Source: Spirogloea muscicola (Eukaryota > Streptophyta > Zygnematophyceae > Spirogloeales > Spirogloeaceae). From it: DNA of 27,609 bases. How positions within the stretch are numbered: position 1 is the first letter of the stretch; the number at the start of each line of letters is the position of its first letter. The position numbers and the translations under genes were made by a program. The notes under the pieces were generated by a model. It saw only the letters and a list, made by a program, of their open reading frames with translations, searched no databases and had not been told where the DNA came from. Shown here piece after piece: positions 1 through 20,455 of this stretch. The DNA is taken from positions 104,087-131,695 of the forward strand of contig WELB01000279.1 in NCBI GenBank assembly GCA_009602725.1. The letters run 5' to 3'.

Positions 1-760
1 TTTGACCCGTGGTTATTGAGCGGGTCAATCTGCTGTAGGTTATGTAGATTTTTAGATGTGCTTGCCTTTGTACCTGGCCATTTGGCCTACATTTCTTTCT
101 AATACACGATCTTTTCATTCTTCGGGCCTTGTCCACATTCGGGCTGGCTTTCATAGCCCTCGCCCCTTTCGGATGAGGTCACTACTGGGTCTGTTGTGCC
201 CTGCTGCCAGCAACTCGTTCATAGCCCACACCTCTTCAGGTTGACCTTTCATCCACCCGGCCAGTCTCAGGGGTCAGTGGCAACGGAGTTCTTAGGGCTG
301 GCCTTTCACAGCCTCGCCCCTCCTTCAGGGTGCTGCTTCTATCACAGCCGTCTGCCCTTTAGGGAAGAATTCTCGGTTGGTGCCTCCGCTCGATCGCCTA
401 GCAGTTCACCTTCTTGTCAGGCCAGAGTTGAGCTTGCTTGCGCCACTGGCACCTCGCCTGGCACCAGTGCAGGCTTCGGGCTTAGGGTTCTTGAGAGCAG
501 CTACTGGCGGTCAGGGCCTTTCTTCAGACGCGTTGCAGGACAAGCTGGTGTCGCTGCTGCAGCAGTACTTGACTGCCGTGCGTGTGACTGCAAAGACCAA
601 TGCACAAGTCACATAGGCCAATGCGAAAAGCAGTGGCACAGTCATCATGTTGGAAGGACGCTTGTGTTCACATCTTCATTGTTGGTTTGTTCAAGATTGA
701 TGAGGCAACTTGTGGTCAATGTGGCATCTTCTGTTATAAAGACTGCACCTTTGTTCATTT
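1..760 (+). mobile_element. 3' end of a LINE: last codons, stop and 3' UTR
   Basis: The window opens inside the tail of a non-LTR retrotransposon ORF. Positions 2-19 read L-T-R-G-Y-stop, the same C-terminus found in eight other places here. The following sequence has the family's 3'-UTR features: a segment at about 57-125 (TGTGCTTGCCTTTGTAC...) that recurs at 17735-17800, and two hairpin copies at 141-159 and 295-313, the first preceded by a CTTGTCCACATTC block close to the family's CTTGTCCATTCCTTT. The ORF body lies to the left of the window. No host gene is seen here. The right limit is uncertain: beyond about 330 I see no further family motif, and 330-760 is unassigned, so 760 is only an outer bound. 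Confidence 0.6.
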
Positions 761-1279
761 AAGACATCCTTGATCTTTCTGTCAGGCTAGAAGTAATAGC
801 TCAGGTGTCTAGCAGGGCGTTGTGTATCGCAGGTCCCTAGCTGCTGGGAAGCTGATGCTCCTGCATGGGCAGATCAAGGCTTTTGGCCTGTGGGCTATCG
901 TGTCATTTCTTATGCAGTGATTCTGAGGTGACTTGGGCGGAAGCTTAGCAGATAGAGCGAATCTTTACGAGGTGGTGTAGCAAAAGAGCTTAACATGCAG
1001 GCTGGCACTTCGCTAACATAGGTTAGAGGTTCCTGGCTAAGCACAATATACACGGGACCGGAATGACAACAATGGTGTATGTGACCACCGCCTGAGCCTT
1101 CTTGATAAGGCCTCGCGACGTGTATACTAATGCGGGGAGCGGAAGCCATCCGATCACGCCGATCCAACGGCTAAGCCTCCTCGCACGCACCCCAGGGTTT
1201 TAACCCCTCGCCCCCCTCCACCATCTCTCTCACGAGACCCCCTGCCGAGCTCTACGCGCCTGCTGCGGCGGGGGCCCCG
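761..1279. other. Unassigned stretch without a recognisable gene
   Basis: No open frame here resembles a known protein, and I see no RNA gene or clear repeat. It lies between a LINE tail and a CCG-rich tract. It could be intron or 5' flank of the STK16-like kinase gene downstream. Confidence 0.3.
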
Positions 1280-1356
1280 GCCGCCCGCCGCCGCCGCCGC
1301 CGCCGTCGCCCATCGCCAGCGATGGGTCTCCGGCGCCGCCGCCGCCGCGGCCGCTG
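1280..1356. repeat. CCG/GGC trinucleotide tract
   Basis: Two runs of CCG/GCC (about 1281-1310 and 1331-1355) flank the short inverted repeat CCATCGC-CAGCGATGG. Open frames through it encode only poly-Ala, poly-Gly or poly-Arg and are not taken as genes. Similar tracts sit at or near the start of the EF-P, CrRLK1L and VPS13-like genes, so this one may mark the 5' region of the kinase gene. Confidence 0.6.
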
Positions 1357-1444
1357 CCCCACTTCGTGGCAGGTGAGAGGGCGAGACAGTGTCCGGCCGC
1401 CCACCTCCCTCCTCCTTCAGGTCGAGGCAGTGGAGTGTGCATCG

Positions 1445-1560
1445 GTCATGGAGGGCCTCAGTGGCTAAGCACAAAGGCAAAGCAGATGGGTATATGTGTA
1501 TCACCTGCTGCCAAGCTGACCCGCTCAAAACCCACGAGTCGGTACGTAGAGGTCGCTAGC
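1445..1560 (-). mobile_element. LINE 3'-end fragment, minus orientation
   Basis: Read on the minus strand, 1540 to 1525 gives T-R-G-F-stop, a diverged form of the LTRGY terminus. Downstream it aligns by eye with positions 5-75: CGTGGGTTTTGAGCGGGTCA against CGTGGTTATTGAGCGGGTCA, then a CTTTGCCTTTGTGCTTAGCC block like CTTGCCTTTGTACCTGGCC. It therefore opposes the copy at the left edge. Degenerate and non-coding. Confidence 0.55.
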
Positions 1561-1668
1561 TGATCCCCGAGGAGGTAGGAGCCGTGAGGTAGGAGTCATG
1601 CGCAGTCATGAGGCATTACTTCATGCTTTTCAGGCTCTTGGGTACTTCGGGATCTTGTAGTATCCATT

Positions 1669-1686
1669 GGGCTGGCCTCTCACAGC
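1669..1686 (+). repeat. Isolated LINE 3'-UTR hairpin copy
   Basis: GGGCTGGCCTCTCACAGCC is the family hairpin, preceded by TATCCATT as in better preserved copies (CTTGTCCATTCCTTT). It lies about 100 bp before the first visible kinase exon, so retroelement sequence reaches into the kinase gene's upstream intron or flank. Confidence 0.5.
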
Positions 1687-1789
1687 CAATGCATTAAATT
1701 GGAAAAGCTGTTTCTCCGTCAGTTAGTAACCTCCTATCTCCCTCCTCTATGCAATGCCGAGCCTGCTGAGTTGCCCTGAGTCATCGCAG

Positions 1790-3641
1790 ACGACGGAATG
1801 TACGCCGTCAAGAAGGTGCTGGTGCAGTCAGAGGAGCAGCTCGCGCTCGTGCGCGCCGAGGTGGCCGCCATGCGCCGCTTCGCGCACCCCAACATCCTCC
1901 CGCTCCTCGACCACTCCATCATCCCGGTCAAGGTCTGGCCACCAAACGCCTGCTTTGATCCCTCCCTCCCCCCTCTGCTCTTTGCCTCCTCTCGTCCAGC
2001 TCTCCAACATTTGCGCGTGTGGGAGCCCAGCGCGCTCGCTCTTGGTGCAAGCCCAGCGGCATCAGTCATAGCCACGCCGTGCTCGGTGCTTTTGATGTCG
2101 ACCCCAAAACCCACCGAAACAGAAGCAACACATTCAACCAAAGCCTCTATCAAAGTGAAGTGTATCGAAGCCGAAGGGGGGCGAGCTGGCAGCTACCCTC
2201 CCTCCTTCGCGAGCGGTCGGCGCTCGGCAAGGTCTGGCCAGGCTCCTGATCTGACCCACCATCGATCCACCCCTCCTTCCTCCCTCCTCTCCTTGCGGCT
2301 GCAGCCCAAGAACCCCGGCGCAGGAGGCCCCAGTCAGGAGGCGTACCTGCTGTTCCCGGTGCACCGCGGCGGCACGCTTGCCGAGCACCTCGAGCGCATG
2401 CGGCGGCCCCGCGGCAGCGCTGGTGGCCGCGACTACGAGCACTTCCCCGCCCTCGCCGTCCTCCAGATCTTCCGCCAGGTGAAGCTCCACCCCCCCTCAT
2501 TGCTTCCTCCCTCTTCCACTCTGAGCCACCGCGAACAGAGCGGCCATCTAAAACGCCATTGCTGTCATTGCCGACCGCCAGATTTGCGCCGGCCTGGAGC
2601 ACATGCACGGAGCAGCGCCCCCGCACGCCCACAACGATGTGAAGCCTGGCAACGTGCTGCTCTCAGAGGCCGCCGCCAATGGTGGTGCTGCAGATGGCAC
2701 CTCCCTTGTGGCGGTGCTCATGGATTTTGGCTCGTGCACGCCGGCAGTCCGCCGCGTCGCGGGCCGCAACGAGGCCCTCGCGCTGCAGGAGTGGGCCGCG
2801 AGCCACTGCACCGCACCGTACCGCGCGCCGGAGCTGTGGGACTGCCCGAGCCATGCTGAGTTCGATGCGCGCAACGATATCTGGTCCCTCGGCTGCACGC
2901 TGTTCGCCATCATGTCAGCTCGCCAAACCCAAATCCTTGTCCTCCTCCTCGGCCGCAGTGTGGCCTCGTTTGGCTCTCTCTCTCTCTCCCCCCTCCTCTC
3001 CCCTCCTCCTCCCTCTCCTACATCTCTTCCATGGTGTTCCTCCACACTCACTCCCTCCCTCCTCTCTTTTCATATTGTCCTCTGTTCCTCCTTTCTGCTT
3101 CTCCCACCCACAGTGCCTCTTGTGTCCTCCCTCCCTCCTTCATTCACCACCTTACCTGCCTCTTACATGCATTACGCCTCCTCTTTGTTACCTCTTCAGA
3201 TTTCATCATCTCCTTCTGTGCTCCTTCTCTATCCCAGCCGTAGTGCTGCATAAGCACTGAGATGCTGGGAATGCCTGTTGCTGTTGGTGTTAGCTTTCTC
3301 TTGGCTGCTGCGCCTTGGGACACAGCCTCCACCAGTGCCAACAGCAATTCGAGGTTGCCTCCGGCAGGTACGGGCAGTCGCCGTTCGAGTATGCAGTGGG
3401 CGAGGCGGGCGGCAGCTTGCAGCTGGCGGTGATGAACGCGGCGGTCAAGTGGCCGCCGCCGCCGGACCCGCCGTACCCGCTCGCCTTCCACCAGCTCGTC
3501 ACCTGGATGCTCCAGCCGCAGCAGTCCATTCGGCCGGCCATCGGCGACGTCGTGCTACACACCGAGCGCCTGCTTGCCAAGCTGCCACCGACATGCCAGC
3601 CGCTACTCCATGGCGGCACTGCCATCAACCTCCGTACTTGA
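1790..3641 (+). CDS. STK16/NAK-like serine/threonine kinase (5' part not visible)
   Basis: Cytoplasmic-type Ser/Thr kinase resembling the plant STK16 family. Exons by frame and GT-AG sites: 1790-1932, 2305-2478, 2582-2913, 3368-3641 (stop TGA 3639-3641). They join in phase to 307 residues. Visible motifs in order are DDGMYAVKKV (subdomain II lysine), EAYLLFPVHRGGTL, AHNDVKPGNVLL (catalytic loop with HND in place of HRD, as I recall for plant STK16 relatives), MDFGS (DFG), RAPELWDCPSH (APE) and DIWSLGCTLFAIMYGQSPFE (subdomain IX). The C-terminus ends shortly after the last helix, as expected for a kinase that is little more than its domain. The glycine-rich loop and N-terminus (about 40-50 residues) are missing. 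The first visible exon has an acceptor at 1787-1789 and begins in phase 2, so at least one exon lies upstream, probably left of the window beyond LINE-derived sequence. Either a large intron or a broken gene is possible. It is convergent with EF-P. Confidence 0.85.
2968..3240 (+). repeat. Long pyrimidine-rich tract inside kinase intron 3
   Basis: Most of the third kinase intron (2914-3367) is CT-rich on the coding strand, including CTCTCTCTCTC at about 2973-2990 followed by many CCTCC repeats. The frame stays open for long stretches, which is a composition effect. Similar but shorter CT-rich stretches occur in this gene's other introns. Confidence 0.55.
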
Positions 3642-4339
3642 CCTTAAACTTTTGAAGCTTAAAATGTGTGTCAAGCCACCTCAAACATCAGATAAAGGCC
3701 CTGATCCTTGAATTAACATACTGTTATGATCTTAAGCTACCTGCAAAGCTTATTTTGGCCTGCTGTTGCCTGCTTGGGCCCCTCCTTCAACCAGGTGACA
3801 CTAAATTCATACTTCAAAAACAACGGTAAAATATGCCACAGGCAAGCGCTGCTCCCATGGCCAACTTGTCTGCAGGTTTGGAAACCGTGAGCACAACCAA
3901 CGCTGCCCTCCTTTATATCATCAGCATGCCTAAGGACACTCGGCTCATGCAGCACAAAGGCATGCTACAGCAGCAGTGTGCGTGTGCGTCTCATTTGCAA
4001 ACTGTTGCAAATGGGCAGCGACAAGCACAGAATGATGCAGGAAAACTGGTGGCCATGTCTTTCTTGGTGTTGAGGATGAAGGAATGAGTACATGGGCTCC
4101 ACTACTGCTGCCAAGTCTAACGATCAAAAACATCCTCAAGCACAATGGGGGCAGTCAAGATGAAAGAGACTTGGTTACAGCCTACTTAAGTTGACTATAA
4201 AATATGGGGGAAGGGATAGGGGGGGGGCCTCAGTGGTGACAGCGATAGCCGAAGGGGGAGTGGTGCACATGAGAGCCTCCTTCTGGCTTGGGCACGCCAT
4301 CCTCACGCAGCTGGCGCTGAATAATGTGCAGAATCCCGC
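3642..4339. other. Convergent intergenic region (3' UTRs)
   Basis: Lies between the stop codons of the kinase (+) and EF-P (-) genes, so it should hold both 3' UTRs and polyadenylation sites. A short G-run occurs at about 4219-4227. No frame here resembles a protein and no repeat family of the window is seen. Confidence 0.5.
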
Positions 4340-6343
4340 TTAACCTCTGCTCATGTACGAGCCCGCACGTGTGTCAATGATGACGGTGTCGCCCTGGTTG
4401 ATGAACAGCGGCACCATGATTGTGGCTCCTGTCTCCAGCGTTGCGGGCTTCGTGCCACCTGACATGAAGCATGGCATGCAAGAGTTGTCATTCCTTCAGG
4501 CCCACTTGACTCACAGTCAGCCTCAAGCTCTGTGGCTGTGCAACTTGATGATGCTTGAAGAGACAATCAAAATGTGAACCTGTTGGGAAGAAGTTACTAA
4601 AGTTTTTACCGATTAGTCATGTGACACCTGACCTTTCCTCCCCAGAAGCACTGGAATGTGCAGACATTTGATATCTAGACTCTGGAAGACTTAAACTGCT
4701 GCTCATACGGGGCATCACATACCGCCACTAGCTGTGTCGCCCTTGACCCCAGGGTCCGTCTGAGTGACCGACAGCTTCACGTTGATGGGCAGCTCAACAT
4801 CAATGACCTGCCCACGAGACCGAGAGTGCGCATCAGCCGTTTCTGAGGAGTTTTGAGGCGCGCAAGGAAAGGAGGCTGATCGAGAAGAGGTGGTCTATCA
4901 CGGCAGTCCAGCTACGCACCGTGAGAAAGCACAGATATCTGGACCAAAAAAGAACAGGTTAGGAAGATTGATTTTCTACGACTACGACAATGAAAGCAAT
5001 GTCTGCATCTTGCTACCAGAGAGGCCTCAGCATAGGACTCTCACCTTGCCATTCCACTGCAGCACGTTGCATTCCATCCCCTCCATAAGCCACTTGCTCT
5101 TGTCCCCAATGTTGCCCGCCGTAAGCCGCGTCTCCTCATATGTCCCCTGCACGAAGACCAAGGTGGACGGAAGCTCTGACTGGCAATGTTATTGGTTGCT
5201 GGAGGCAAAAGTGACCACCAATCTAGCTGCTTACAGAGTAGCAGAGCAGTGGCTTGCAAAGCACCCCGAGCTGGAGCCCTCACCATGTCCATGAACACAT
5301 ACTGGTCGCCCTCAGCGTATGTGTACTGCATGACCTCCTTGGTCACAGTCGCCTCGTCGATCTGCTCCCCATGCAGCGCCCAGCAGAATGACAACGGCAG
5401 TGAGCTTGTGAGCCATGCGGCCACGGACAGCCTCAACCCTTGCCCTGATGAGATGAGAAGCATCATGGAAAGGTGTGGAGAGAGCCAGAGTTGATCATAT
5501 TATGTCTCTGCAGTATCAGCAGCAAGTACTGACCATCGAGACAAGCTGCATAAACTTCATGACAGAATCACGAAAAGACGAGAGTAGGTTTCAAAAATTG
5601 TTAAATATATGTCTTTCAAAACGTTGTAGGAAATGGGTGGGTTGGAGGTTAAGCTCTCACCGACTCTCCCGCTCGGAAGGTCCTCTCCACCGTGTTGCCG
5701 GTGACGTAGTTGCGCAACTTTGTGCGCACAAACGCCGCACCCTTGCCGGGCTTGACGTGCAGGAACTCTGAGCGGGGACCAATGTCAGGACAAGCGAAGT
5801 TGGCGTTCAGCACGCGATGGCACTGAGCCACTGAGGCCGTCACCCGCTGAACTGACTACAAGTGACGAGCTCCTGCCGCAAGTTGCTGGCCAGTATGCAG
5901 TGCCAGTGGCGGCCTTGCAGCTCTAACGGCATGGCCGCCGCAACCCATGTCGCCGTCGGTGGCGTGGCAGCTGCTTGATCAGATGGACCGCAGGAGAGCA
6001 CAGCCAGCACCGCAACTTTGGCGCCGGCGGCGGCGGCGGTGGCGGCGGCGGCGGCTGCGGCGGGGAGGTATCAAACCTTGGACCCTCCAGGGGGCGCCGT
6101 CGATCTCCAGGCTGGTGCCGTTGCGGATGTCGTTGCTGGAGAGCGCGACGATGCCTGCGGATGGAGCGACGCGGCGGCCAGGCGCTGAGCCGGCGGCGGC
6201 GGCGGCGGCGGCGGATTTCATGCGCCCCGCGCGTCTTCCTATGAAGTAGCCATCGTTTTTTGCTGGCCTTGTGCCCATGTACCGCAAAACTTTTTCAAGC
6301 AGCNGCCCGCCGCCGCCACCGCCGCCGCCGCCGCCGCCGCCAT
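4340..6343 (-). CDS. efp: Elongation factor P, plastid-type
   Basis: EF-P binds ribosomes stalled at proline-rich stretches and promotes peptide bond formation; this one is predicted to act in the plastid. Exons (minus strand): about 6077-6343, 5661-5767, 5284-5361, 5045-5146, 4723-4807, 4340-4458 (stop TAA). The mature part is about 185 residues, the normal EF-P length. Motifs in order: [40 protein letters not shown] with the conserved modifiable lysine of the PGKG loop, [77 protein letters not shown], and the end [17 protein letters not shown]. The ALSSND start and Ala-rich leader match plastid EF-P of plants. The best initiator is the ATG at 6343 (Met plus an alanine run), but it is out of frame with the mature domain as written, and an N lies at 6304. 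If that N hides a different repeat length, the frame is restored. Other in-frame ATGs are 6422, 6278 and 6221. Confidence 0.9.
6021..6341. repeat. GGC/GCG tracts in EF-P exon 1 and intron 1
   Basis: Three runs occur: about 6021-6062 in intron 1, 6191-6214 coding alanines in the leader, and 6305-6341 coding the alanine run after the ATG at 6343. The undetermined base at 6304 lies at the edge of the last run. Repeat-length errors here would shift the leader's reading frame. Confidence 0.7.
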
Positions 6344-6429
6344 GGCTGGTCCGGCTTAACTGGTTTCCATTAGCGGCGGCCGTCGGGGCGTCGTTCGGGC
6401 AGCTCGCGTCAGAGCAGCCCATCGGCGCG

Positions 6430-6789
6430 CATCCCTCGTTGGGCTTGGCTGGTCCGGCATAAGTGCTTTACATTAGGGGCAGTTGTCGGGGCGACGTGCA
6501 CACGTGGCAGTATTAGTTCCAGCACAGTACGGCCACGTGCTGGTGTGCGTTGATCGCGTGAGTAGTTTTGGGTACTAACGTAACACTGTTACCTTAGCCA
6601 CCGTAGCATAGGGCTTCGTGCTATTATGTAGCCTCGAATGTCGAATATAGAAATATGGTGAGTCAGTGGGTCGGTAGAATCACCCACTCCGCCTATTCTG
6701 CTCGGCCGATGAGAGTCTCCATAGGTAAGGGAGGCCCCGGCACATCGTATCATTGGCCCGAACAGTCTTGTGGCTCTGAGTGCGGCGAT
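6430..6789. other. Upstream flank of EF-P; no gene seen
   Basis: Should contain the EF-P promoter (minus strand). I see no convincing TATA box, no conserved frame and no copy of the window's repeat families. Confidence 0.3.
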
Positions 6790-6976
6790 ACGGCGCTGTG
6801 TGCACGGCGGCTCTGTGTGCGGCGAGGCGGCGCTGTGTGCACGGCGGCTCTGTGTGCGGCGAGGCGGCACTGTGTGTGCGGCGGCTCTGTGTGCGGCGAG
6901 GCGGCGCTGTGTGTGCGACAGCTCTGTGTGTGCGGCCAGGTGGAGCTGAGTGCTCGCCGGCTCTGTGTAAAACCAG
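6790..6976. repeat. 37-bp minisatellite, five copies
   Basis: Tandem units start at 6790, 6827, 6864, 6901 and 6940, with lengths 37, 37, 37, 39 and 37. Units 1 and 2 differ only at the first base; units 4 and 5 are increasingly diverged. Each unit holds two related halves around CTGTGTGC (GGCGCTGTGTGCACG and GGCTCTGTGTGCGGCGAG), so an 18-19 bp ancestor probably doubled first. Open frames through it (for instance His/Thr/Pro-rich on the minus strand) are by-products of the repeat. Confidence 0.9.
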
Positions 6977-7204
6977 GCAAGCCTTTGTGTTACTCTGAAG
7001 TCTTTGTGATCATGTCTGCGTCTGCGTCCGCATTTGCACCAAGACGAGGACGGCCTGCCGGTCCTCCTACCTCAAGACAGGAAGTGGCTGTAAGACATAA
7101 AGGACAGGTGCAAAATGTAGATCGTGAACAGCAGGTTCAGGTTGCAGATCATGGAAGACGAGGGCAGGCAAAGCAATAGTCGTTTCACGAAAGTGGTCAC
7201 GGAG

Positions 7205-7300
7205 GAGAAAAGCGCGGCCAAATTGACTTGTGGCTGTGAGAGGCCAGCCCAAAGAGAGAAGGCGCGCGGAGCGCATGAAATGAAAGGGACGCCAATCCAA
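7205..7300 (-). mobile_element. LINE 3'-UTR fragment, minus orientation
   Basis: Contains AAGCGCGGCCAAATTGACTT and the hairpin GGCTGTGAGAGGCCAGCCC (7232-7250), matching the block at 18231-18273 and, in reverse, 17596-17640. The right part (GGAGCGCATGAAATGAAAGG) resembles 19190-19215. Non-coding remnant. Confidence 0.55.
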
Positions 7301-7539
7301 GCCAATACATTGCTCAGGCAGAGTCTAGTGCAAATTGAACAAGGCTACATGATTCGATGACCTGAACTAAGGAATGGACAAGTATTGAGGGAGCTGATGG
7401 TGCAGAAAGCACACAAAGGTGCGATAGACAAGGCATTGGCCAGCACCAACAAGCGCTCAGTAGCGTGGTCGGGAACGGCGCCGGGTACAGGTTGCAGCAC
7501 TTCCTGGAGGCTCGGTGCCTTTGGGTCTTGTGTCCTGCT

Positions 7540-7790
7540 ACCGCATGCGATTGTCTATGTCCCTCCAGCGCTCCCAAGCGCTTGCTTTGCACCGCCGCGC
7601 CGGTCGCGCCCTTGCAGCAGCCTCTGGCTTGCGCATTGGGGTTGCTCTTCCTCCCCTCAGCTCATCTGACATCCTAATGCTGACCCGGGGGTACTAAGAG
7701 CGCCCTGTCTGCCTAGCCTGTGGCTCCGTCATAAACACCTGTATGCATCTGGCTGGCTTTCACAGTCGCTCTTTTAATATGAGCAGCTGC
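7540..7790 (+). pseudogene. LINE ORF C-terminal fragment and 3' UTR
   Basis: Reading + from 7543: YRMRLSMSLQRS, then RRAGRALAAASG, then SSSDILMLTRGY and stop TAA at 7695-7697. This aligns by eye with the end of the longer LINE ORF at 15862-17517 and with the fragment at 18569-18868. Upstream the frame loses similarity, so the fragment is 5'-truncated. A hairpin relative (GGCTGGCTTTCACAGTC) follows at 7751-7767. The piece 7775-7805 (TTTTAATATGAGCAGCTGC) resembles 15511-15532. Confidence 0.7.
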
Positions 7791-7792
7791 AT

Positions 7793-8056
7793 TCATTTTC
7801 GAAAGCGTGGTCTGCAGTAAGAAGGGCCCACGTCCACCGAAGTCACAATCTGCTGTGCGAGGTTGCTGAGAGCAGCAGCTGTCATGGCTATCATGAAGAG
7901 GTGAAAGTCTTGAGTGGGCGACTTGCTCGATCCAGATCCTCTGACAAGGGATTGGCTACTGAGGGGCCGACAGCGCGGGAGCAGGAGAATAAGCTCAAGA
8001 AGCGATGTACTAAGAATTACAGTCACACCAGCAGTAGCTTTGAATATCACTTCCAT
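7793..8056 (-). other. Unrecognised 87-codon open frame
   Basis: An open frame directly after a splice-acceptor-like TGATTTTGCAG. The start is apolar (TAGVTVILSTSLLELILLLP), which could be a membrane segment. I recognise no family. It lies downstream of the CrRLK1L stop on the same strand, so it may be 3' UTR, a small separate gene or chance. Confidence 0.15.
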
Positions 8057-8385: not shown

Positions 8386-11300
8386 CTACCAGGAGTCACT
8401 ATCTTCAAGGGAGTGTAAATTTGGGATACTGGGAGGCGGAGCCAAGGCAGACACACCACTCTTATCAGGCTGCACAAATCAACACATATCTTATTCGTAT
8501 ATTAATTGCACTGACTCGCCGTAGTGAAGCTGCGCAAGTATGAAGCAGCCACTAGGAGACTTGTGCATTGAAGGAACTTGTCAACTCGTGGGAAAAAAAA
8601 CAAGTGCATTGCAGTAAGGGATATTCACAATCTGCAGGTCGCGAAAAGCGAAAGAGTAGGTCCAAGGACACACCGGTAGCATCGAGAGTGCAATTTCAAG
8701 GGTGGTCAAGACATCGCCCATGGCGGGTCGTTTGGAGCTGTCATGGCGAACACACTTCCCTGCCAATTCCCCCACCTTTTCCACAGACGCCCACTCATAC
8801 TGCCCTTGCATATTTGGATCTATTACTTTGTACAGTGTCCCCTCGCCTAAGTGGTGCAGAGCCTGTGCATCAAATGACAGATACACATAATGAGATTGTT
8901 CATCCTCCTGTGCAATGCTAGCACAGTCACTGTCACAAGAGAATGGCATTCCGTGCAACTCGTACGAAAGCGTTCCATTACTCACCCACTCAACAAGTAT
9001 GAGCTCGTCGGAAGCAATTTCAGAGTCTATGGGGCTCCTTCCACACAGTACTTCTAGGAGCACCACTCCAAAGCTGTAGACATCTGACTTTGTTGTGAGC
9101 TGCAACCTGCAGATCAGAGACGTTGACCACGTCAGGCCTTTACATCAAGCTGCAGTCACACAATTGTGCACTGCTATATACAACAGTGATTTGGTTGATT
9201 GTACTTGCATGAGCCAGCACTTACTTGCGGAAGTACTCCGGGTCCAAGTAGCCAATGCTACCCTTCACAGTGGTACTGACCTGTAACAGTGCAGTGGAGT
9301 TTAGATGACGTCGTTATTTGTGAAAGTGGATGCGTAACGATGTGTCATGCTGAGGACCTGCTCATGTGGACTTCCCATGCAAGTAGATAGCTGCATAGAT
9401 TAATGCCACCTAAGATGAGCACCATGTAGGCTCTTACATGCGACTTGTCCAGATCAGGGCCTAGTCGTGAAAGGCCAAAGTCTGAGACTTTGGCCACGAA
9501 GTGTTCATCAAGAAGAATATTCGTGCTCTGTGGAAGAACGACTCTCTAGTAATCAGTATGGACGAGGGTCCAAAACCCTAAGTCCCAACATGTGCACAGA
9601 CTAACAGAAAGCAAGAACCTGCTGGTGAGTTGACTACTTAATGGCTGTAAGTCGACCTCATTTGCAGGGTTGGCGACGTGGAGTTAAGGTTGACTGTTAC
9701 ACACTTGACTTGGCTGCAACTACACCTCATTTGCAGGATTGACAATGTGGGACTGTGGTACAATAGTAACACCCTTGACGTGCAAAATTCAAGTTGCTGA
9801 TGCAACAGGTTAAGATTACCTTGACATCTCTGTGAATGACACTGTGTGTAGCCCCGTTATGTAGATAGTTGAGGCCGCTGCAAGCGCCAACGCAGATCTC
9901 TAGTCGCTGCCTCCAAGTGAGCACCTTTCTGGTGTCCAACTCCTTCCCTGCTCCATTACAAGATTGTGAGATCTGTTCTTGAGCATCACAGACCCTTTGT
10001 GCAAGGCCGGAGGTGATTGAGGTATGCAAAGCAAGCTGTAATTTGAAAGGCTCACCGTAGAGGTGACTTCTGAGTGTGCCATTTGGCATGAAGTCATAGA
10101 CAAGGAGCATCTCCTGCCGCTCATCACAGTAGCCGATGAGAGACACTAGGTGCCTATGCCTGAGCTGGCTGAGCAGAAGGATCTCCGTTTCAAACTCCTT
10201 GATACCTTGCACGCAGTTTGGTACACCCCTCTTAATGGCCACCTCAGGGCCATCAGGTAGTACACCCTGCATCATTAAGCCAAGGCATTTACTCAGCATA
10301 TGTCTGTGATCATGCTTCTGGAACAGGACTTGAGCACTGGAAAAGTCACACAAGTATCCTGTTCAAGATACAGCACAGAAGGGTAATAGTATTGTGACAT
10401 CATGATTCTAAGTACATCCAGCTTGCTATACTACTCATTTCCACTTGCAATACCTTATAAACCTTGCCAAAACCTCCTTCTCCAATCAGCAGATTGTCAG
10501 CGAAGTTGTTTGTTGCATTCTTCAGTTCCTGCAAGCGGAATCTTCTTCCTAGAGCCTCCTTCTTTGAAATACCTGATTGCAGGTAGCAAATATCAGTGCA
10601 AGCAGATCAACATTTGCACCAATCTATGTAGTTGTTCAAAAGGCTGCTAGTGTGGCTGAAGGAAAATATCGGATCCTCCTCTTATCCCACCTGCTTGCTT
10701 GGGCCTTGGTGTTGGAGACTCGTTCCCATTGATGGCAACTCTTTTCCGCTTCACCAAGAATATATATATGATGCTTGCGAGGATGAGGAGGGCAGCAATG
10801 CCACCTACAGCGCCCCCCACTACCGGTGCAATGCTTGAGCTGCTCTTCTTCTTGCCTGTTTTTCAGTCAGTAACGAAACAGGATAAGAAGAAGAGCCTCC
10901 ACGTGTACGTGAACGTCTCTCAGACTCACCTTGATAATGCTTAATGTGCAATTTAACTGTGACGTGCTCTTCCTCAACAGAGCACTGTATCTGGACAGTA
11001 ATGTAATGGCTCTAAGTTGTATGGCTTCAGTACAACTTGACTATATGAGGGGGCCGCTCTTCAATGAATACCAGATGTTGGGGGGACTTGTGCAGGGGAT
11101 GCAACTGGGCTTGTTGCTGGAGATGCTGCTCCTGTCATACCATGAAGCAGATATTGAATCTGTAAGCACTGTGGTATACTTGTATGCATGTGGTCTCTTG
11201 AACACTTGCAAGCACTGGCTTGATCTAAGGCCCTCTCATTGTCTTTATGCACTCTGAGGCTGTCCTTCTCTTGCTAAATTACAAACTCGTGCTAGGCAAG

Positions 11301-14300: not shown

Positions 14301-14777
14301 TGTCTGGCTTACCATACATCGCAAGTTCACAGCAACAGCCATGCATCACTATTTGAATGTCAAGAGCATGCAATTTGAGGAGGTTCAAGCTGATCTCCGA
14401 CATCTGAGAGTCGACTTCACCAATTTCAACGAGAAGCAGCAGTAAGACATCTGATGTATGAGCCGCTGAATTGCCAAACCGAACACATTGGCCCAGCCTC
14501 GGCTGTGCCCATATTCTGCCAGGAGCAGGCCAAAGTATGGCGGCGACTTTCTAATCTGTGCGTCGCAGCCCGCCCTGTGTGCCGCCATAAGTGGCGTTAC
14601 CGTGGCTCCCGACAGCTGCAGTCTACGCGGCCTCAGCGTAGACTGCAGCTGCAACACTGGCGAGAGCAGCGATTTCGCACCAGTCTGCGCGCTGGAGGTC
14701 GCAGCCCCGGCCGCCAGCAGCAGCAGACAGACGCCGAAGCTCGCTTGCGATCTCCGGAACCACCAAGGGCGCCGCAT
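8386..14777 (-). CDS. CrRLK1L (malectin-like) receptor kinase
   Basis: Plasma-membrane receptor kinase of the FERONIA/THESEUS type; land-plant members sense cell-wall state and RALF peptides. My model has 20 exons (minus): 14681-14777, 14089-14303, 13642-13827, 13147-13374, 12733-12932, 12421-12583, 12317-12382, 12028-12165, 11790-11877, 11643-11715, 11515-11582, 10691-10855, 10454-10572, 10056-10266, 9820-9947, 9438-9527, 9225-9280, 8986-9106, 8674-8862, 8386-8469. All phases agree, giving 894 residues, normal for the family. Residues 1-30 are a signal peptide ([17 protein letters not shown]). The malectin-like region starts DNVLINCGG, has SAIEVVSA mid-way, restarts VYRFNCGGP and ends AGVEIFKM. 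A Pro-rich stalk ([13 protein letters not shown]) precedes the membrane span at about 519-542. Kinase motifs are intact: [10 protein letters not shown] 593-602, VAIK lysine 614, HRDVK 711-715, DFG 731-733, [17 protein letters not shown] and RPAMGDVL. It is predicted active. The least certain exons are 12317-12382 and 11515-11582 (weak acceptors) and the last one. Confidence 0.9.
14613..14651. repeat. Perfect 16-bp inverted repeat, 7-nt loop
   Basis: CAGCTGCAGTCTACGC (14613-14628), loop GGCCTCA, then GCGTAGACTGCAGCTG (14636-14651), with no mismatch. It falls in the first intron of the CrRLK1L gene, about 30 nt after the 5' splice site on the minus strand. It could fold in the pre-mRNA or extrude as a cruciform. 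It is too short for a typical plant microRNA precursor. Confidence 0.9.
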
Positions 14778-15360
14778 GGCGGGCCGGCGCCGGCAGCTCC
14801 CTGTGCCGAGCCGCCGCGGCCGGCGGCAAGCCCGCTTCCCGCCCCGCGTCTCGCCCCCTCGGTCGCCACAAAGGCCGCAGACGTCGCCACTTCCGTGCGC
14901 GGCGACCTGCGGCGGCGTCGGCGCAGGGAATTGCGACGGCGACGGCGGCAGGGGCGGCGACGTCGGCGGCGGCGGCGGCCGCGGCGGCGGGTTTGGTGAT
15001 GGCCTTGGCGCTCCCGGGAAGGCCGGGACGCCTGATCAGCGGGCGCGCCGCCAAGTTTGGGCCCGCTGCCAGAGCTGGCGGAGCCCCGCCGGAGCTGCCC
15101 GGGAAGTGGGGCGCCCCGCACCGGTGCCGCCAGAAGTGGCGGCACCGCCAGCTCGGGCGGGGCCCTGGCTCTGTGGTGCGCGCCTGGGTGGGCGCCCCCT
15201 GAGCAGTCTGGTGCCAGCCATTCCCCACCGCCGTCCCCTCTGTTCCCGGTAATTTCTCGCTGAGCTCCGTCTACATCCGCGGGCACCAGTTGCCCGGGGC
15301 AGCGGGGAGCCCACATCAGTGATGCGATAACTTCTCGATAGCATTCCCCGCTAAGAGGCC
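14778..15360. other. GC-rich upstream region of the CrRLK1L gene
   Basis: Presumed promoter and 5' UTR of the receptor kinase (minus). GGC/GAC repeats occupy about 14911-14992. Long open frames on both strands (Arg-, Ala- or Gly-rich) come from base composition and match nothing I know. Confidence 0.4.
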
Positions 15361-15367
15361 GGCGAGT

Positions 15368-15476
15368 GCTGCCGGCGAGCGGTCGGAGCTTGTCGCAGGC
15401 CGGGGGAGGCGTCATCCCCGCCGCCCCGTAGTCCCCTTCAGCGACGTGGCGCGGTGTTCGAATCCTGCCGGCAGCA
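15368..15476 (+). tRNA. tRNA-like sequence, probably a remnant
   Basis: GCTGCCGG near 15369 pairs with CCGGCAGC at 15468-15475 as in an acceptor stem, and TGCTGCCGGC/GCCGGCAGCA is a perfect 10-bp inverted repeat. GCGAGCGGTCGGAGC resembles a D-arm (A box) of a long-variable-arm tRNA. GTTCGAATCC is a near-perfect B box. Against a working gene: the T-stem pairs poorly (GCGGTG against CCTGC) and I find no clean 7-nt anticodon loop. It may be a decayed tRNA or the head of a tRNA-derived SINE. Confidence 0.3.
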
Positions 15477-15659
15477 GACGTTCTCCTCTCTCTCTTCGTA
15501 AGCCGATTTTTTAATATCAGCAGCCGCTTGACTCTTTTTCGTAAGTCTTTCCCGCAGTTCTAGTCGCCTCGTTATTTATAGCATCCTGGCTACCCGCTGT
15601 GGGTAAGCCGCTGTTGGCACCATCTCAATGCCTAGCCCCAGCTATATCCTAGTAGTCGG

Positions 15660-15861
15660 GAGGTTTCGTCTGTCCAATGGTAACAAGAAAGTGGCCACTT
15701 ATTGAAGAAGGGCTCGCCCATTGAGAATATGGGCTGGAACAGCCAGCCCAAAAAAGAATGAACAGAGTACAAGAAGAGGGGGGGGGAAGCCAGGCGAAGC
15801 CCTAGGGCGAAGCAGCAGAAATGACAAGCACACAAGAAAAAACAAAGCAGCTACTAACCAC
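15660..15861 (-). mobile_element. 3' UTR of the LINE copy at 15.9-17.5 kb
   Basis: On the minus strand it follows the ORF stop and contains GTTCATTCTTTTTT, the hairpin GGGCTGGCTGTTCCAGCCC (15731-15749) and then AATGGGCGAGCCCTTCTTCAATA. The same order appears after the stops at 18176 (-) and 19639 (+). Similarity between the copies ends just after CTTCTTCAATA, which probably marks the element's 3' end (near 15700). Confidence 0.65.
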
Positions 15862-17517
15862 TCAGTAACCCCTGCTAAGCAGGCGCAGGTCGGAGAGGCT
15901 ATGCTCCTGGAAGTATGTCCCCTGGCCAGAGCCAGAGGCAGCAGCAAGGGCTCGGCCAGCACGCAGGTGCAGCGCACGGGCCATGGACCTCTGCAGCGAG
16001 ACGGCCAGGCGCATGCGATACACCTGGGCCAACGACCCGGCGGCGGGGAAGTCCACCGGCTCCCCATGGAAGCGGCGGGCAACGGCGTGACGAGCAAGTT
16101 GGTGGAGCAGTTCGAGCCACCGAGCACCCAACGCCCCATGGGTGTCGATAGCCAGAGGGAAGAACGCGTCGGCTGGCGGATGGTTGGCGTACTTGGTCAC
16201 CTTTGCGCGAGCGGCGCCTTCGACCGCATACCCAGCCTGGGTGGCACACTGGACTGGGTGGGAGCGGTCGAAGGCGTCGGTGGTCACCACGTCCAGGAGA
16301 AGACGTGGCCCGCCGGCCTGTGGGGTGGCCACCAGGTCGACTCGCCGGCCGTGGACACCGTCGGCCCTCTCCTGTAGCGGCATGACGCCGGAGTGCTCCG
16401 CAGCCACCGAGAAGCCCGCCTCCGCCAGGATGCCATGCATGGCATCGCGGAGGCGGTCGTGGGCCGCCGTCCGCTCGCCGCCGTGAGCGCAGCGCAGGAC
16501 GTGGGCGGCTAGCTCCCCAGACTCGGCCCCTCGCTCGCCGCATGCACATTGTCGCACGCCCTGGAGACAAGGAGGCGGCAAGCCCAGGAGCCTGTGGACT
16601 GCAGTACGGAAGACCTCATCGGGAAGCGTGAGGGCGTCGGTGAGGGGGAGGGCCTGAAGCCACGCCGCTGCTCCCGGGGACGAGGCAGAGAGGAGTCACG
16701 CGCGCCCGCGCTGGTCGGCCTCAGGGAGCTGCAGTACGACGGTGGTGTAGGCGGCTTTGTCGACGACGGCCGCGAAGCGCGCTTGGACGCGCAGGTCAGC
16801 GGTGTGCGCGAGGTGCGCAAACGAGACCGCCTGGCCTGCCATGTCGGGGTGTGCCGCGAGCAGCTCCTGGTGGGCGGTGCTAAGCGCCACTTGGAACGGC
16901 AGCGCGCCCTTGTCCACCTCCACCACCGCCTGCTCCAGTGCACGCCGGCCATGGACCAAGAAGCGCTGCGCCACGGAGGCGGCAGTCTGTGCCCAGCTGC
17001 CGAGGTATGCCGCCCGGCATGTGCGGACGAGCGGGCGCAGGCCGAGGCCGCCGTGGCTGATGGGTAGCGCCGCCTGGTGGAGAGCTGCTGACGACGGGAC
17101 GAAGCCCGGGTGGCGGACCAGGGCCGCCAAGCTCGCCCCCATGCCCGCGTCGAACGCCTCGTACGCTGCCAATGCCCCTGGGGACGGCGGGGTGGCCCGC
17201 GTCAGGTACTGGGGCCGCTGCCCTATGGCCTTGGTCAGCATGGCCAAGGACAGCTGCATATCCTCCAGCTCGGGGAGTCGGGCCGCGGGCAGAAGGTGCT
17301 CCTCGAGGCGGGCTCGCAGCTGCCCCTCCACGAAGGCCGGCGTGCCGATGGGGACGCCCAAGAGGGTGAAGCCATCCGCCGGAGTCCGGCATCCGGGGGG
17401 CAGCGCCAGGGTGGGTGGAATAACGCCAGGGGACCAAGCCGCGCACTTCGCCGCCCGAATGGACAGGCCGAGGGAGGCCAGCTGCTGCTCGAAGGGGGGC
17501 CACCGGACACTTCGTAT
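15862..17517 (-). pseudogene. 5'-truncated LINE ORF: RT C-terminus plus endonuclease
   Basis: About 552 codons in a single minus frame, interrupted once by TGA at 16696-16698 (codon 274). The start (FEQQLASLGLSI, then AAKCAAWSP and DGFTLLGVPIG) matches the region just after the catalytic motif of LINE reverse transcriptases; the YxDD part is missing, and sequence before about 17517 belongs to other repeats. Next comes an alpha-helical region (SHGGLGLRPLVRTCRAAYLG), then a CCHC-like knuckle (CACGERG...HVLRC). A PD-(D/E)XK-type pattern follows (RRVDLVATP...RLLLDVVTTDAF, two aspartates separated by 14 residues), as in restriction-like-endonuclease LINEs. The C-terminus is YRMRLAVSLQRS, RAGRALAAASG and LRLLSRGY-stop. 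TGA follows GCG, so one C-to-T change at a CpG (CGA to TGA) would explain it. Otherwise the frame is clean, which suggests a fairly recent loss. Confidence 0.8.
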
Positions 17518-17555
17518 TGTAATGGGCCAGACCCATGGCGGACAGGGTACCCCGC
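17516..17555 (-). repeat. Conserved flank block shared with 19130-19172
   Basis: On the minus strand CTGCGGGGTACCCTGTCCGCC followed by ATGGGTCTGGCCCATTAC matches, with few changes, the + strand at 19131-19172. In both places it directly follows the TG...CA module, except that here a LINE 3'-UTR fragment separates them. Confidence 0.55.
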
Positions 17556-17557
17556 AG

Positions 17558-17643
17558 GTTGCACTCAGGCTCCCTCAGACCTTGTCCATTCCTTTGGGCT
17601 GGCCTTTCCCAGCACCAGTCAATCTGGCCGCGCTTCTTCTTGT
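17558..17643 (+). mobile_element. LINE 3'-UTR fragment inserted in another repeat
   Basis: Contains CAGACCTTGTCCATTCCTTT, the hairpin GGGCTGGCCTTTCCCAGC (17596-17613) and CCAGTCAATCTGGCCGCGC. The second copy of the surrounding repeat at 18.98-19.17 kb lacks this segment. It is therefore a candidate empty site. GTTG occurs at both ends and could be a target-site duplication. Confidence 0.6.
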
Positions 17644-17644
17644 T

Positions 17645-17723
17645 GTAACCCGTCCGGTTCCCGATTGCCTCTTACATCATCTGCTAACGTCTCTCCTAAC
17701 TATGGGTTAGCCTATCCGTTACA
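17645..17723 (-). repeat. 79-bp TG...CA module, copy 1
   Basis: On the minus strand it runs TGTAACGGATAGGCTAACCC... to GGACGGGTTACA, preceded by the purine-rich GGGGGGAGCAG. TGTAAC and GTTACA are inverted termini like the TG...CA ends of an LTR, and the purine run resembles a polypurine tract. Partner copy at 19034-19129 (+). At under 100 bp it would be a very short LTR (TRIM-like) or a part of one. Confidence 0.55.
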
Positions 17724-17734
17724 CTGCTCCCCCC

Positions 17735-17843
17735 TGTGCTTGCCTTTGTACTTGGCCACACATGGCCTCCCCATCTCTTAATATACACGCATTTTCTTGC
17801 TTGGCCGGGAGTCCTTGTCGCGTCTCCAGTCTTCGTCGCATGT
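17735..17843 (-). repeat. 65-bp insert and flank shared with other repeats
   Basis: 17803-17843 (minus: GCGACGAAGACTGGAGACGC and onward) matches 18984-19020 (+). Between it and the purine tract, about 65 bp (17735-17800; + GTGCTTGCCTTTGTACTTGG...) is present here and absent from the 19-kb copy. The same segment occurs at 57-125 in the LINE tail. Confidence 0.55.
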
Positions 17844-18059
17844 AAACGGGCCCGGAGCCGGTGGCGAGGAGCCGGCCCCTGAGGAGTTGAGGTCCATGAG
17901 GGGCCTCGTCCGATGGCGGCGGAAAGGCCCGGCGGGCGAGCGACCTGATCACACGGCCCAGGCAGCCGACGGCGCCCGGAGTGCGGAGGTGGGGATAATG
18001 CAGCCTGGCTTGGCGCGTACCCCAACCCAAGATCAGAAGAAGAAAAGCGCTCGCCCATT

Positions 18060-18226
18060 GAGGATAGGGGCTGGAAAAGCCAGCCCAAAAAAGAATGAAC
18101 AGAGTACGAGAAGGGGGCCAGGGGAAGCGCTAAGAAAAACAAGCACACAAAGAAAACAAAGCAGCTACGAATCACTCAGTAACCCCTGCTAAGCAGCCGC
18201 AGATCAGAGATGCTAGGCTCCTGGAA
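18060..18226 (-). mobile_element. LINE 3'-end fragment, minus orientation
   Basis: Minus strand: S-I-S-D-L-R-L-L-S-R-G-Y and stop TGA at 18178-18176. The 3' UTR is nearly identical to that after 15862, including GTTCATTCTTTTTT, the hairpin GGGCTGGCTTTTCCAGCCC (18068-18086) and the start of the GGGCGAG block. It is a recent copy kept only for its last 12 codons. Confidence 0.75.
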
Positions 18227-18230
18227 GAAA

Positions 18231-18421
18231 GAAAGCGCGGCCAGATTAACTGGTGGCTGGGAAAGGCCAGCCCAAAGGTATGGTCTGAAGGAGCCGGAGT
18301 GCGAAGGACTAGGATAAGACATCAGCTAGGGAAGAAAGCGCGGCCAGATTGACTGGTGGCTGGGAAAGGCCAGCCCAGAGCAATGGACAAGGCCTAAAGG
18401 AGCCGGAGTGCGAGGGACCAG
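18231..18421 (-). repeat. 103-bp tandem duplication of a LINE 3' UTR
   Basis: Units start at 18231 and 18334 with GAAAGCGCGGCCAGATT. Each carries the hairpin GGCTGGGAAAGGCCAGCCC (18255-18273 and 18358-18376) and AGGAGCCGGAGTGCGA. The second unit keeps AATGGACAAGG, which is altered in the first. A third diverged hairpin (GGGCTGGCAAAGCCAACCC, 18449-18467) follows. Confidence 0.75.
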
Positions 18422-18568
18422 GGAGAAGTGCTCGCCCATAGAGAAGAGGGGCTGGCAAAGCCAACCCAAAAAGAATGGACAATGTCCAAAGCCAAAGAAA
18501 AAAGTGTCGGAAAAGGACTACACTACAAAGCACGAGACGGTGCGGAGGGAGATGCAGATGGATGCTCT

Positions 18569-18868
18569 GTATCCACGTGTGATCAACAGCAAATCAGAGT
18601 AACTCGAAGCGGGATAAGCGGCACTCTGTCGAGACCCGGAAGCTGCAGCCATAGCACGGCCAGCGCGCGCGTGGACCGCATGAGCCAAAGAGCGCTGCAG
18701 CGAGACCGCCAGCCTCATCCGAAAGACCTGCGAGAGGGAGTCGGCAGCATTGAAACCTGGCGAGCCCTGCCGCCGCTCGATGGCCTCCCGGGCAAGCCGC
18801 TGGAGGAGATCCAACCAGCCACTGCCGAAGGCCCCTTGTACGTCAATGGCTAGTGCCGCGAAGGGCAT
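18569..18868 (-). pseudogene. LINE ORF C-terminal fragment with lost stop
   Basis: Minus frame: LAIDVQGAFGSGWLDLLQRL, then FRMRLAVSLQRSLAHAVHAR, AGRAMAAASG and SYSDLLLITRGY. It is clearly related to the end of the ORF at 15862-17517. After RGY the expected TGA reads AGA (18568-18566), so the frame runs on into unrelated sequence. 5'-truncated and not functional by itself. Confidence 0.75.
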
Positions 18869-18916
18869 CGCCTGGAGGGTGGTCAGAGTACTTGCGCTCC
18901 TTAATCCAGGGAACGC

Positions 18917-18958
18917 TCAGTAACCTCTAGTCAGGAGATGCAAGTCTGAGTAGCTAGC
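18917..18958 (-). mobile_element. LINE C-terminal fragment (SYSDLHLLTRGY-stop)
   Basis: Minus strand reads S-Y-S-D-L-H-L-L-T-R-G-Y-stop with TGA at 18919-18917. It is nearly the same as the + strand fragment at 19365-19400, so a subfamily with DLHLLTRGY is present twice. Confidence 0.65.
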
Positions 18959-18983
18959 CGGCGAAGCGCTGGAGGTCGGAGAT

Positions 18984-19172
18984 GCGACGAAGACTGGAGA
19001 CGCGACAAGGACTCCCGGCCAAGGGGGGAGCAGTGTAACGGATAGGCTAACCCATACTTAGGAGATAGAGGTTAGCAGATGAAGTAAGAGACAATCTTCA
19101 TCAATACTGGGAACCGGACGGGTGTTACAGCCTGCGGGGTAACCTGTCCGCCCTGGGTCTGGCCCGTTACCG
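18984..19172 (+). repeat. TG...CA module copy 2 with flanks
   Basis: Contains GCGACGAAGACTGGAGACGC, the purine tract AAGGGGGGAGCAG (19021-19033), the 96-bp module TGTAACGGATAGGC...GGGTGTTACA (19034-19129) and the flank CTGCGGGGTAACCTGTCCGCC. The flank contains GGTAAC...GTTACC (about 19138-19172), a second inverted pair. It is an inverted copy of 17.52-17.84 kb without the two LINE-derived inserts there. It is 17 bp longer inside the module, around CTTCATCAATACT. Confidence 0.6.
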
Positions 19173-19334
19173 TGTAGAAAGGCGGGCGGTGCGCATGAGA
19201 TTGAAAGAGAGGCCAAGTCGAACCTTACAATAGTCCTGGTAACGAGGCAATGAGATAAGGGGGACACCAAATAGATATCCACGAGTGAGCACATACATAT
19301 TTGACAAGCTAAGCTGAGGAGCCAGACCACCACC

Positions 19335-19400
19335 ATGGAAGCCATTAGCCTGCCGCCTGCGAGCTATTCCGACTTGCATCTTCTGACTAGAGGTTACTGA
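19335..19400 (+). mobile_element. LINE C-terminal fragment, plus orientation
   Basis: A 22-codon stretch ending SYSDLHLLTRGY with stop TGA at 19398-19400. A 3' UTR follows with CAGACCTTGTCCATTGCTTT, the hairpin GGGCTGGCTCCTCCCAGCC (19465-19483) and CCAGTTAATGTGGCCGCGC up to about 19503. Confidence 0.65.
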
Positions 19401-19602
19401 GCGTCCCCTTGCTGATGTCTTAGTCCTTAGCACCCCAGCTCCTTCAGACCTTGTCCATTGCTTTGGGCTGGCTCCTCCCAGCCACCAGTTAATGTGGCCG
19501 CGCTTGCTTTCATTAGCCTGGCCAAATGCGCGCTCAGCACGCTGGTGTATAACGAGTGCCTGAGAGCGCTACAGACTCAATGATAGCCGCCCTCTATAGC
19601 CA

Positions 19603-19790
19603 AGTTTCTCTGACTTGAGGCTGCTTAGCAGGGATTACTGAGAGTTTCGTAGCTGCTTAGTTTCTTCTTGTGCTTGTTTTTCTTAGTGCTTCCCCTGGCC
19701 CCTTCTCGCACTTTCTTCATTCTTGTTTTGGGCCGGCTTTCTCCAGCCTTTATCCTTTATGGGCGAGCCCTTCTTCAATAGCAAGCAATG
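19603..19790 (+). mobile_element. LINE 3'-end fragment, plus orientation
   Basis: SFSDLRLLSRDY-stop (TGA 19639-19641), then a 3' UTR close to that at 15.7 and 18.1 kb. It contains GTAGCTGCTTAGTTTCTTCT, the hairpin GGGCCGGCTTTCTCCAGCC (19730-19748) and ATGGGCGAGCCCTTCTTCAATA. Sequence after CAATA differs from the other copies, supporting that as the 3' end. Confidence 0.65.
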
Positions 19791-19879
19791 GTTGCTTGCG
19801 GGACGCTGCAAAGCCCTGAATGGGCGAGCGCTTTCGTCCTGAGCTACCAGCTCAACCTTGTCGACGGGCATAGACAAGT

Positions 19880-20215
19880 TGTGCCAGGTGAAGATCACTT
19901 CATTTATAGAGAATTGCGCGCCCAATGAGACTAGGGCTTCATTTCGTAGCCGCCATGAATATTCATAGCGCATGGGAAGACTTGTCGCCGCGGGGGTGGT
20001 CCACATTATGTCTCTCCTTCTTCTCTGCATGATGCGTCGCCCAACCTGGCACAGTCGTCGTGGGTTCCCCTGGTTGGAATGCGTCAATAAGAACGACGGT
20101 GAGGACGAGACGAGGCCCACCGCTCTGGGGGATGGCAACCACATCCAGACGCCTGTAGTAAGGTCTGCCGCACTTCTGGAATACCGGCACGTATACAGAG
20201 AGGGAAGGCAGAACA
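19880..20215 (-). pseudogene. Degenerate LINE endonuclease-domain fragment
   Basis: Minus frame: YYRRLDVVAIPQSGGPRLVL and then TVVLIDAFQPGEP, corresponding to RRVDLVATP...LLLDVVTTDAF of the longer copy. The second catalytic-type aspartate is replaced by threonine. A frame change near 19975 follows. A hairpin relative lies upstream on the same strand at 20367-20386. Confidence 0.6.
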
Positions 20216-20455
20216 CGCGGTCTACAGGGCCTCTCTTTCGAAAGTGTTGTTTTTTTTCTTCTTGTCGCCTTTCGCCTTCTGGTGCCTTTCGGCCTTTCGG
20301 CCCTTTGGACCTTGTTCATTTTTTCTGGAAGAAAGTGGCTCTCCCAAAGGAAAAGAAAGGGGGCAAGGGCTGTGAACAGCCAGCCCAAAAGAAATTGACA
20401 AGGGGGCCAAAAGCGCTACGCAAAGCTTTCCCTGTCGGAGATTCGCCCTCGTCCC
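20216..20455 (-). mobile_element. LINE 3'-UTR-like sequence with hairpin
   Basis: Carries GGGCTGTGAACAGCCAGCCC (20367-20386) next to CCAAAAGAAATTGACAAGG, the reverse-orientation block of the family. The rest (pyrimidine runs, CCTTTCGGCC repeats at about 20285-20305) is low-complexity. No intact frame. Confidence 0.45.

Follow-up and report, generated by a model that had tools for sequence, protein, structure and literature searches.

The window analysed here, a stretch of 27,609 nt from Spirogloea muscicola (Streptophyta, Zygnematophyceae; contig WELB01000279.1 of assembly GCA_009602725.1, positions 104,087–131,695), carries a dispersed family of short hairpins of the form GGGCTGG-loop-CCAGCCC, which we read, with a probability of about 0.62, as the 3' tail of a LINE-like (long interspersed nuclear element) family of the green lineage recognised by the element's own reverse transcriptase (RT), i.e. 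as a stringent-type tail of known kind. As the original prediction had proposed, the association of the hairpin with LINE-like 3' ends is supported within the window, both by open reading frame (ORF) ends lying upstream and by insert boundaries. Recognition by the RT is suggested by analogy with known stringent-type LINEs, as described in PMC4176376 and PMC3747384.

Hairpin copies and LINE-like 3' ends

At least 14 dispersed hairpins had been predicted, and the hairpin or a near variant was present at all 14 listed positions, with seven copies on each strand in element sense. The exact pattern GGGCTGG-N3-9-CCAGCCC was found twice in the window versus 0.01 expected, while a loop of 5–6 nt and at most two mismatches gave 15 matches versus a mean of 0.485 and a maximum of 3 in 200 dinucleotide shuffles. 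Thirteen of these 15 are listed copies (the copy at 7751 exceeds the mismatch limit), and the two unlisted matches, at 14689 and 25245, were missed by a covariance model trained on the 14 copies, which recovers those 14 by construction at E ≤ 1.1e-9. The same model revealed no fifteenth copy in the window (next match E = 0.28), and a looser pattern (loop 3–9, at most three mismatches) showed no enrichment, with 25 matches versus 17.25 in shuffles (maximum 27). Grouped by their flanks and read in one sense, the copies form group A (15731, 18068, 18449, 19730), group B (17596, 18254, 18357, 19465, 7231) and group C (141, 295, 20367), with two diverged copies designated X (1669, 7751); group letter and position are used as names below.

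Wherever an ORF is present, the hairpin lies 52–112 nt past its end. A six-frame scan with the C-terminal ORF-end motif, which is not fully independent because the motif was composed after seeing the ends beside the hairpins, gave eight matches in the window, six of which have a hairpin 55–115 nt downstream on the same strand. The seventh (18920) leads to the hairpin at 18357 beyond a nested inserted fragment, and for the eighth (19275, no stop) no hairpin was found within 700 nt. A hairpin-blind tblastn search with the ORF at 15.9–17.7 kb returned ends at 18569, 7694, 18179 and 19638, each then followed by a hairpin; the shorter ORF ends at 18179 and 19603 share 78–83% identity with the longest remnant over 18 and 12 residues. 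This eighth match (19275–19310, minus strand; SLSNMYVLTRGYL) is degenerate, as is another on the minus strand at 1528–1563 (SASDLYVPTRGF, then stop), with no hairpin copy found downstream of either.

Insert boundaries could be read for three of the 14 copies, and probably for a fourth (Table 1). Around B19465, CATTAGCCTG precedes the LINE homology and recurs 26 nt past the hairpin. When the minus-strand segment 18425–18905 carrying A18449 is set aside, its flanks align with B19465 through ORF end, 3' untranslated region (UTR) and hairpin, apart from a 12-nt gap where they meet; nested LINE-like copies here span 18331–18963. The tail-only insertion with B17596 is absent from a related locus, its duplication (TTG) being too short to carry weight, and the boundary evidence for X7751 is moderate, as its 9-bp repeat could be chance. 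A scan for target duplications around all 14 copies gave clean candidates for B19465 and X7751 only, those of A15731 and A19730 being imperfect and identified by eye. The element 3' ends are not poly(A) and, except at X7751, are short C/T-rich stretches (CTTCTT, CTTTCTTTC, CTTGCTTT). Where boundaries can be read, the copies resemble insertions by target-primed reverse transcription (TPRT), with 5' truncation, target duplication and a common 3' end. The copies at 18449, 18357, 18254 and 18068 stand in series in the same orientation, 18449 being nested in the element of 18357, and the arrangement of 18357, 18254 and 18068 would fit insertion into older tails.

From hairpin to 3' end the distance is 24–28 nt at the three readable sites and 35 nt at the probable fourth, X7751. 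Proximity to the element 3' end would also suit a transcription terminator or a 3'-end processing signal of the element; with that much further element sequence past the hairpin at the three sites, however, we regard such a role as very improbable.

For B7231 an empty-site reading was dropped, as joining the flanks raised the score only from 54 to 56, a result that 29 of 500 random deletions also reached. Beside this copy (7206–7300 compared with 19166–19232), 84% identity over 38 nt was observed with the locus near 19179–19216, and from the sequence B7231 may lie within a further instance of that target.

Upstream of the solo copies 141, 295 and 1669 no ORF end was found, and the segment at about 57–120, just before copy 141, resembles an insertion at about 17735–17799. 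Some of these copies could accordingly be short interspersed nuclear elements (SINEs) with a borrowed LINE tail, the sharing of a tail with a partner SINE being frequent but not obligatory among stringent-type LINEs. However, a tRNA search of the window with bacterial settings found no tRNA gene, no 5' body was shown to be common to two solo copies, and these copies could also have arisen by tail-only truncation of the kind observed at 17596, which leaves a SINE origin improbable.

Conservation and folding of the tail

The stem had been described as mostly kept with a freely changing loop. This holds for the core, whose arms are near-fixed while loop length and sequence vary, five core pairs holding in 68 of 69 cells. 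It fails for the ends of the stem, as the outermost pair is unpaired in 6/14 copies and the innermost likewise in 6/14, so that only some copies have the full 7-bp stem. Overall, 86.6% of 97 stem cells are paired compared with 31–62% in slid controls, a gap expected for a structure derived from the same sequences. Among the six copies directly tied to an ORF end (15 non-independent pairs, chosen by hairpin), the stem shows a mean pairwise identity of 82%, a value inflated because the copies were picked by the hairpin. The corresponding mean is 68% over the final 39 nt of the ORF, 64% over the 24 nt leading up to the stem and 47% across the remaining UTR, and the 30 nt that follow reach 67%.

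The statement that most copies adjoin a further block was borne out by eye, CTTGTCCATT or a variant being visible at 10 of 14 copies; it is exact at 17596, 18357 and 19465 and absent at 7231, 7751, 295 and 18254. The proposed second mini-hairpin GGGCGAGCCC stood in part: it is exact in two of the 14 copies (15731, 19730), and palindromic in those two only. Its counterpart reads GGGCGAGCGC at 18068 and GGGCGAGCAC at 18449, and all five B copies have GGCCGCGCTT; the remaining five copies show a degenerate version or none. In three of the four A copies this block pairs with an upstream block and thereby forms an outer helix instead of a hairpin of its own. Folding of the 67–69-nt tails revealed the hairpin capping this outer helix in A15731, A18068 and A18449 (z = −3.55, −3.75 and −2.88), and C141 gave an outer helix with z = −3.60; B7231 also folds well (z = −3.29), but its flank is non-homologous. 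Flank pairing was better than that of shuffled flanks both in the four A copies (0.017, 0.004, 0.054 and 0.019) and in C141 (0.007). We accordingly consider the outer helix likely in the A copies and C141 and unproven for the family as a whole.

If the hairpin is a stringent-type tail, the element protein would grip it on its own RNA, and TPRT would begin a short fixed distance downstream. With such a start, even tail-only copies would retain the hairpin. In most A copies the hairpin probably caps an outer helix of the TGTTCATT/TTGTCCATT block with the ATGGGCGAG block. Going further, one may speculate that this is an undescribed LINE lineage with a two-helix 3' tail (near-invariant capping hairpin and outer helix, with a subfamily-specific alternative inner stem in the C copies) that sets the RT start, and that its C/T-rich tail is a preferred target leading to same-orientation stacking (18357, 18254 and 18068 on the minus strand), a proposal we consider doubtful.

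Besides the inflated stem identity, a number of results weigh against RT recognition of a folded tail. Every hairpin copy analysed comes from the single window, and pairs involving X7751 show 64–71% identity in the stem, barely over the 62–64% at the ORF end. Compensatory change in the stem, which the original prediction had put forward as a test, was not borne out: one of 97 cells is altered on both sides, a level reached by 238 of 500 shuffles, and RNAalifold gave 0 compensated pairs of 5. The power of this comparison is low because the core stem hardly varies, and the lack of compensatory change leaves selection on the fold unproven. The remaining nine tails, A19730 (+0.34) included, fold with z between −1.97 and +0.45, and the best duplex of A19730 lies in a shifted register. 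Against shuffled flanks the outer helix is unsupported in B18254 (0.109), B19465 (0.638), B17596 (0.557), X1669 (0.426), X7751 (0.31), C20367 (0.347) and C295 (0.368), borderline in B18357 (0.064), and in B7231 (0.016) involves the non-homologous flank. A15731 and A18068 are not independent, as they are near-identical here, and co-variation as proof of the outer helix was rejected, since swapped flanks pair equally well (5130 of 20000 permutations at least as good). Free minimum-energy folding does not return the listed hairpin for B18357 and B17596, and for the three C copies it gives a different inner stem, of GGGC.GGCT with AGCC..GCCC. This different fold of the C copies, together with an ORF fragment of 38% identity (19981–20199) that has no associated hairpin, slightly lowered our confidence. 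Finally, sequence searches of Pfam, NCBIfam and PDB with the ORF remnants yielded no convincing match, and no RT domain was detected.

These results lend some weight to the alternative that the hairpin was passed down as part of the LINE 3' end and kept as sequence, e.g. for protein binding or priming, or simply by descent, its fold being without a role. Covariation is lacking, flanks exchanged between copies pair no worse than cognate ones, the downstream block is kept as sequence while its palindrome is not, and in 5/14 copies free minimum-energy folding gives something other than the listed stem. Near-fixed core arms around a loop of varying length and sequence speak against it, as do three of four core-pair changes that stay paired (G-U), yet none of six innermost and three of nine outermost changes do so. 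We hold this alternative to be rather unlikely, and retain the stringent-type tail as the preferred reading.

The LINE reading itself was prompted by GVPIG, PISHGGLGLR, CxC...HxxxC and RRVDLVA...LLLDVV, which we take to be LINE motifs, perhaps of a kind with a restriction-like endonuclease. The latter two are visible in the ORF by eye, without a convincing Pfam or PDB match, and the ORF remnants appear to lack catalytic parts. Searches of PDB gave no match at E ≤ 10, two matches at 0.11 and 0.63, or eight unrelated ones at 0.26–2.5; NCBIfam gave a single MerD match (E = 0.094) far under the cut-off; and Pfam gave one chance match (0.11) for the 7527–7694 fragment, with no RT or endonuclease match. 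An AlphaFold model of the C-terminal part of the ORF was unusable (mean predicted local distance difference test score 43, predicted template modelling score 0.26). In Rfam three matches were obtained at E ≤ 1, all far below the gathering score, all at 6181–6335 and none at the hairpins. Searching viral contigs with two LINE ORF pieces and the tail pattern returned nothing. The lone tail-pattern match among genome contigs (L001, in a Nitrospiraceae metagenome-assembled genome; best tblastn E = 0.11, blastn E = 0.015) was judged chance because it showed no convincing homology beyond the pattern.

Feature positions and neighbouring features

Table 1 Hairpin copies, insertions, outer-helix strands and ORF remnants in the window (positions count from its first nucleotide)
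Feature	Position	Strand	Remarks
Hairpin A15731	15731–15749	−	exact 7-bp stem; ORF stop 112 nt upstream
Hairpin A18068	18068–18086	−	exact 7-bp stem; ORF stop 89 nt upstream
Hairpin A18449	18449–18467	−	one U-G pair; ORF end (stop lost) 98 nt upstream
Hairpin A19730	19730–19749	+	one C-A mismatch in core; ORF stop 88 nt upstream
Hairpin B18357	18357–18376	−	assigned to ORF end 18920–18955 after setting aside A18449 insert
Hairpin B18254	18254–18273	−	5'-truncated tail
Hairpin B19465	19465–19484	+	ORF stop 64 nt upstream
Hairpin B17596	17596–17615	+	tail-only insertion
Hairpin B7231	7231–7250	−	homology with other B copies begins just before hairpin
Hairpin X7751	7750–7768	+	diverged; ORF stop 52 nt upstream
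Hairpin X1669	1669–1688	+	no upstream ORF end found
Hairpin C20367	20367–20386	−	no upstream ORF end found
Hairpin C141	141–159	+	no upstream ORF end found in the mere 140 nt of window there
Hairpin C295	295–314	+	no upstream ORF end found
Insertion with B19465	19353–19510	+	exact 10-bp repeat CATTAGCCTG at 19343–19352 and 19511–19520
Insertion with A18449	18425–18905	−	in 3' UTR of another same-sense copy; TCCCTGG at 18906–18912 and 18418–18424
Tail-only insertion with B17596	17559–17642	+	84 nt; absent from related locus near 19140
Probable insertion with X7751	7471–7803	+	9-bp repeat AGCGTGGTC at 7462–7470 and 7804–7812
Outer helix of A15731, 5' strand	15757–15767	−	CTCTGTTCATT
Outer helix of A15731, 3' strand	15713–15722	−	AATGGGCGAG, part of claimed second hairpin
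Outer helix of C141, 5' strand	125–134	+	GGCCTTGTCC
Outer helix of C141, 3' strand	171–180	+	GGATGAGGTC
LINE-like ORF remnant, longest, 5'-truncated	15862–17500	−	one internal stop; ends SDLRLLSRGY, then stop; SLSDLRLLSRGY, then stop; upper limit approximate (17510–17556 common to unrelated locus near 19140)
Second ORF fragment	18569–18862	−	61% amino acid identity to first; ends SDLLLITRGY, stop lost; upstream of A18449
Third ORF fragment	7527–7694	+	61% amino acid identity to first; ends SDILMLTRGY, then stop; upstream of X7751
Fourth ORF fragment	19981–20199	−	38% amino acid identity to first; tied to no hairpin copy

Several further features were observed in the window. Two copies of a short repeat, each with a small hairpin (GGCCA-N-TGGCC), lie at about 57–120 and 17735–17799. 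Relative to the inverted copy near 19020, the one at 17.7 kb is an insertion, and the repeat may represent the tail of a different family of retroelements. Inverted copies of an 80–96-bp element that starts with TGTAAC and ends with GTTACA lie at 17644–17723 and 19034–19129, with homology extending on both sides of the copies. In element sense it is preceded by the purine-rich GGGGGGAGCAG, and the whole resembles a short long terminal repeat with a polypurine tract. Moreover, a 37-bp unit is repeated in tandem (5.3 copies) at 6772–6968, and host-like exons at 2603–3253, 5041–5466 and 8581–10353 gave protein kinase matches and an elongation factor P (EF-P) match under the curated cut-off.

Comparison with known systems

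The way in which LINE proteins select their own RNA has been worked out for few elements. With its near-fixed core stem, free loop and an 84-nt tail-only insertion, the present family would provide a compact tail on which stringent recognition could be tested, and it bears on the proposal, made in PMC3747384, that such recognition is the ancestral condition of green plants. Features of this kind are already known.

Nested and clustered LINE copies, as observed here, are also described for Zepp and ZeppL, L1-clade LINEs of Coccomyxa and Chlamydomonas (PMC3446292, PMC8226300). Zepp and L1-1_CR, however, have poly(A) ends (PMC3747384), which the present copies lack. Green algae further contain LINE/SINE pairs, such as L1-1_CR with SINEX-3_CR and RandI-Dualen with other SINEX families, and other algal L1 families carry other 3' repeats or none (PMC3747384). 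Conserved LINE 3' ends of the green lineage, which are thought to be recognised by the RT, are reported for a monocot L1 lineage (LINE1-1_ZM/ZmSINE2) and for LINE/SINE pairs of Chlamydomonas (PMC3747384). In the monocot hairpin a variable, compensated stem carries a conserved loop, in contrast to the near-fixed core stem and variable loop found here; CGAG, reported 3' of the monocot stem, also occurs past the A-type hairpin, which we treat as a lead only (PMC3747384). UnaL2 ends in TGTAA repeats (PMC3747384), whereas the 3' end of the present family is mostly C/T-rich, a distinction drawn by description only. The closest parallel in arrangement is given by the stringent-type tails of UnaL2, ZfL2-1 and ZfL2-2, and by R2, which needs its 3' UTR: as in the present family, a stem-loop or a required 3' UTR lies near the 3' end of the RNA, and in such LINEs the stem-loop of the 3' tail is bound by the cognate ORF2 protein (PMC4176376).

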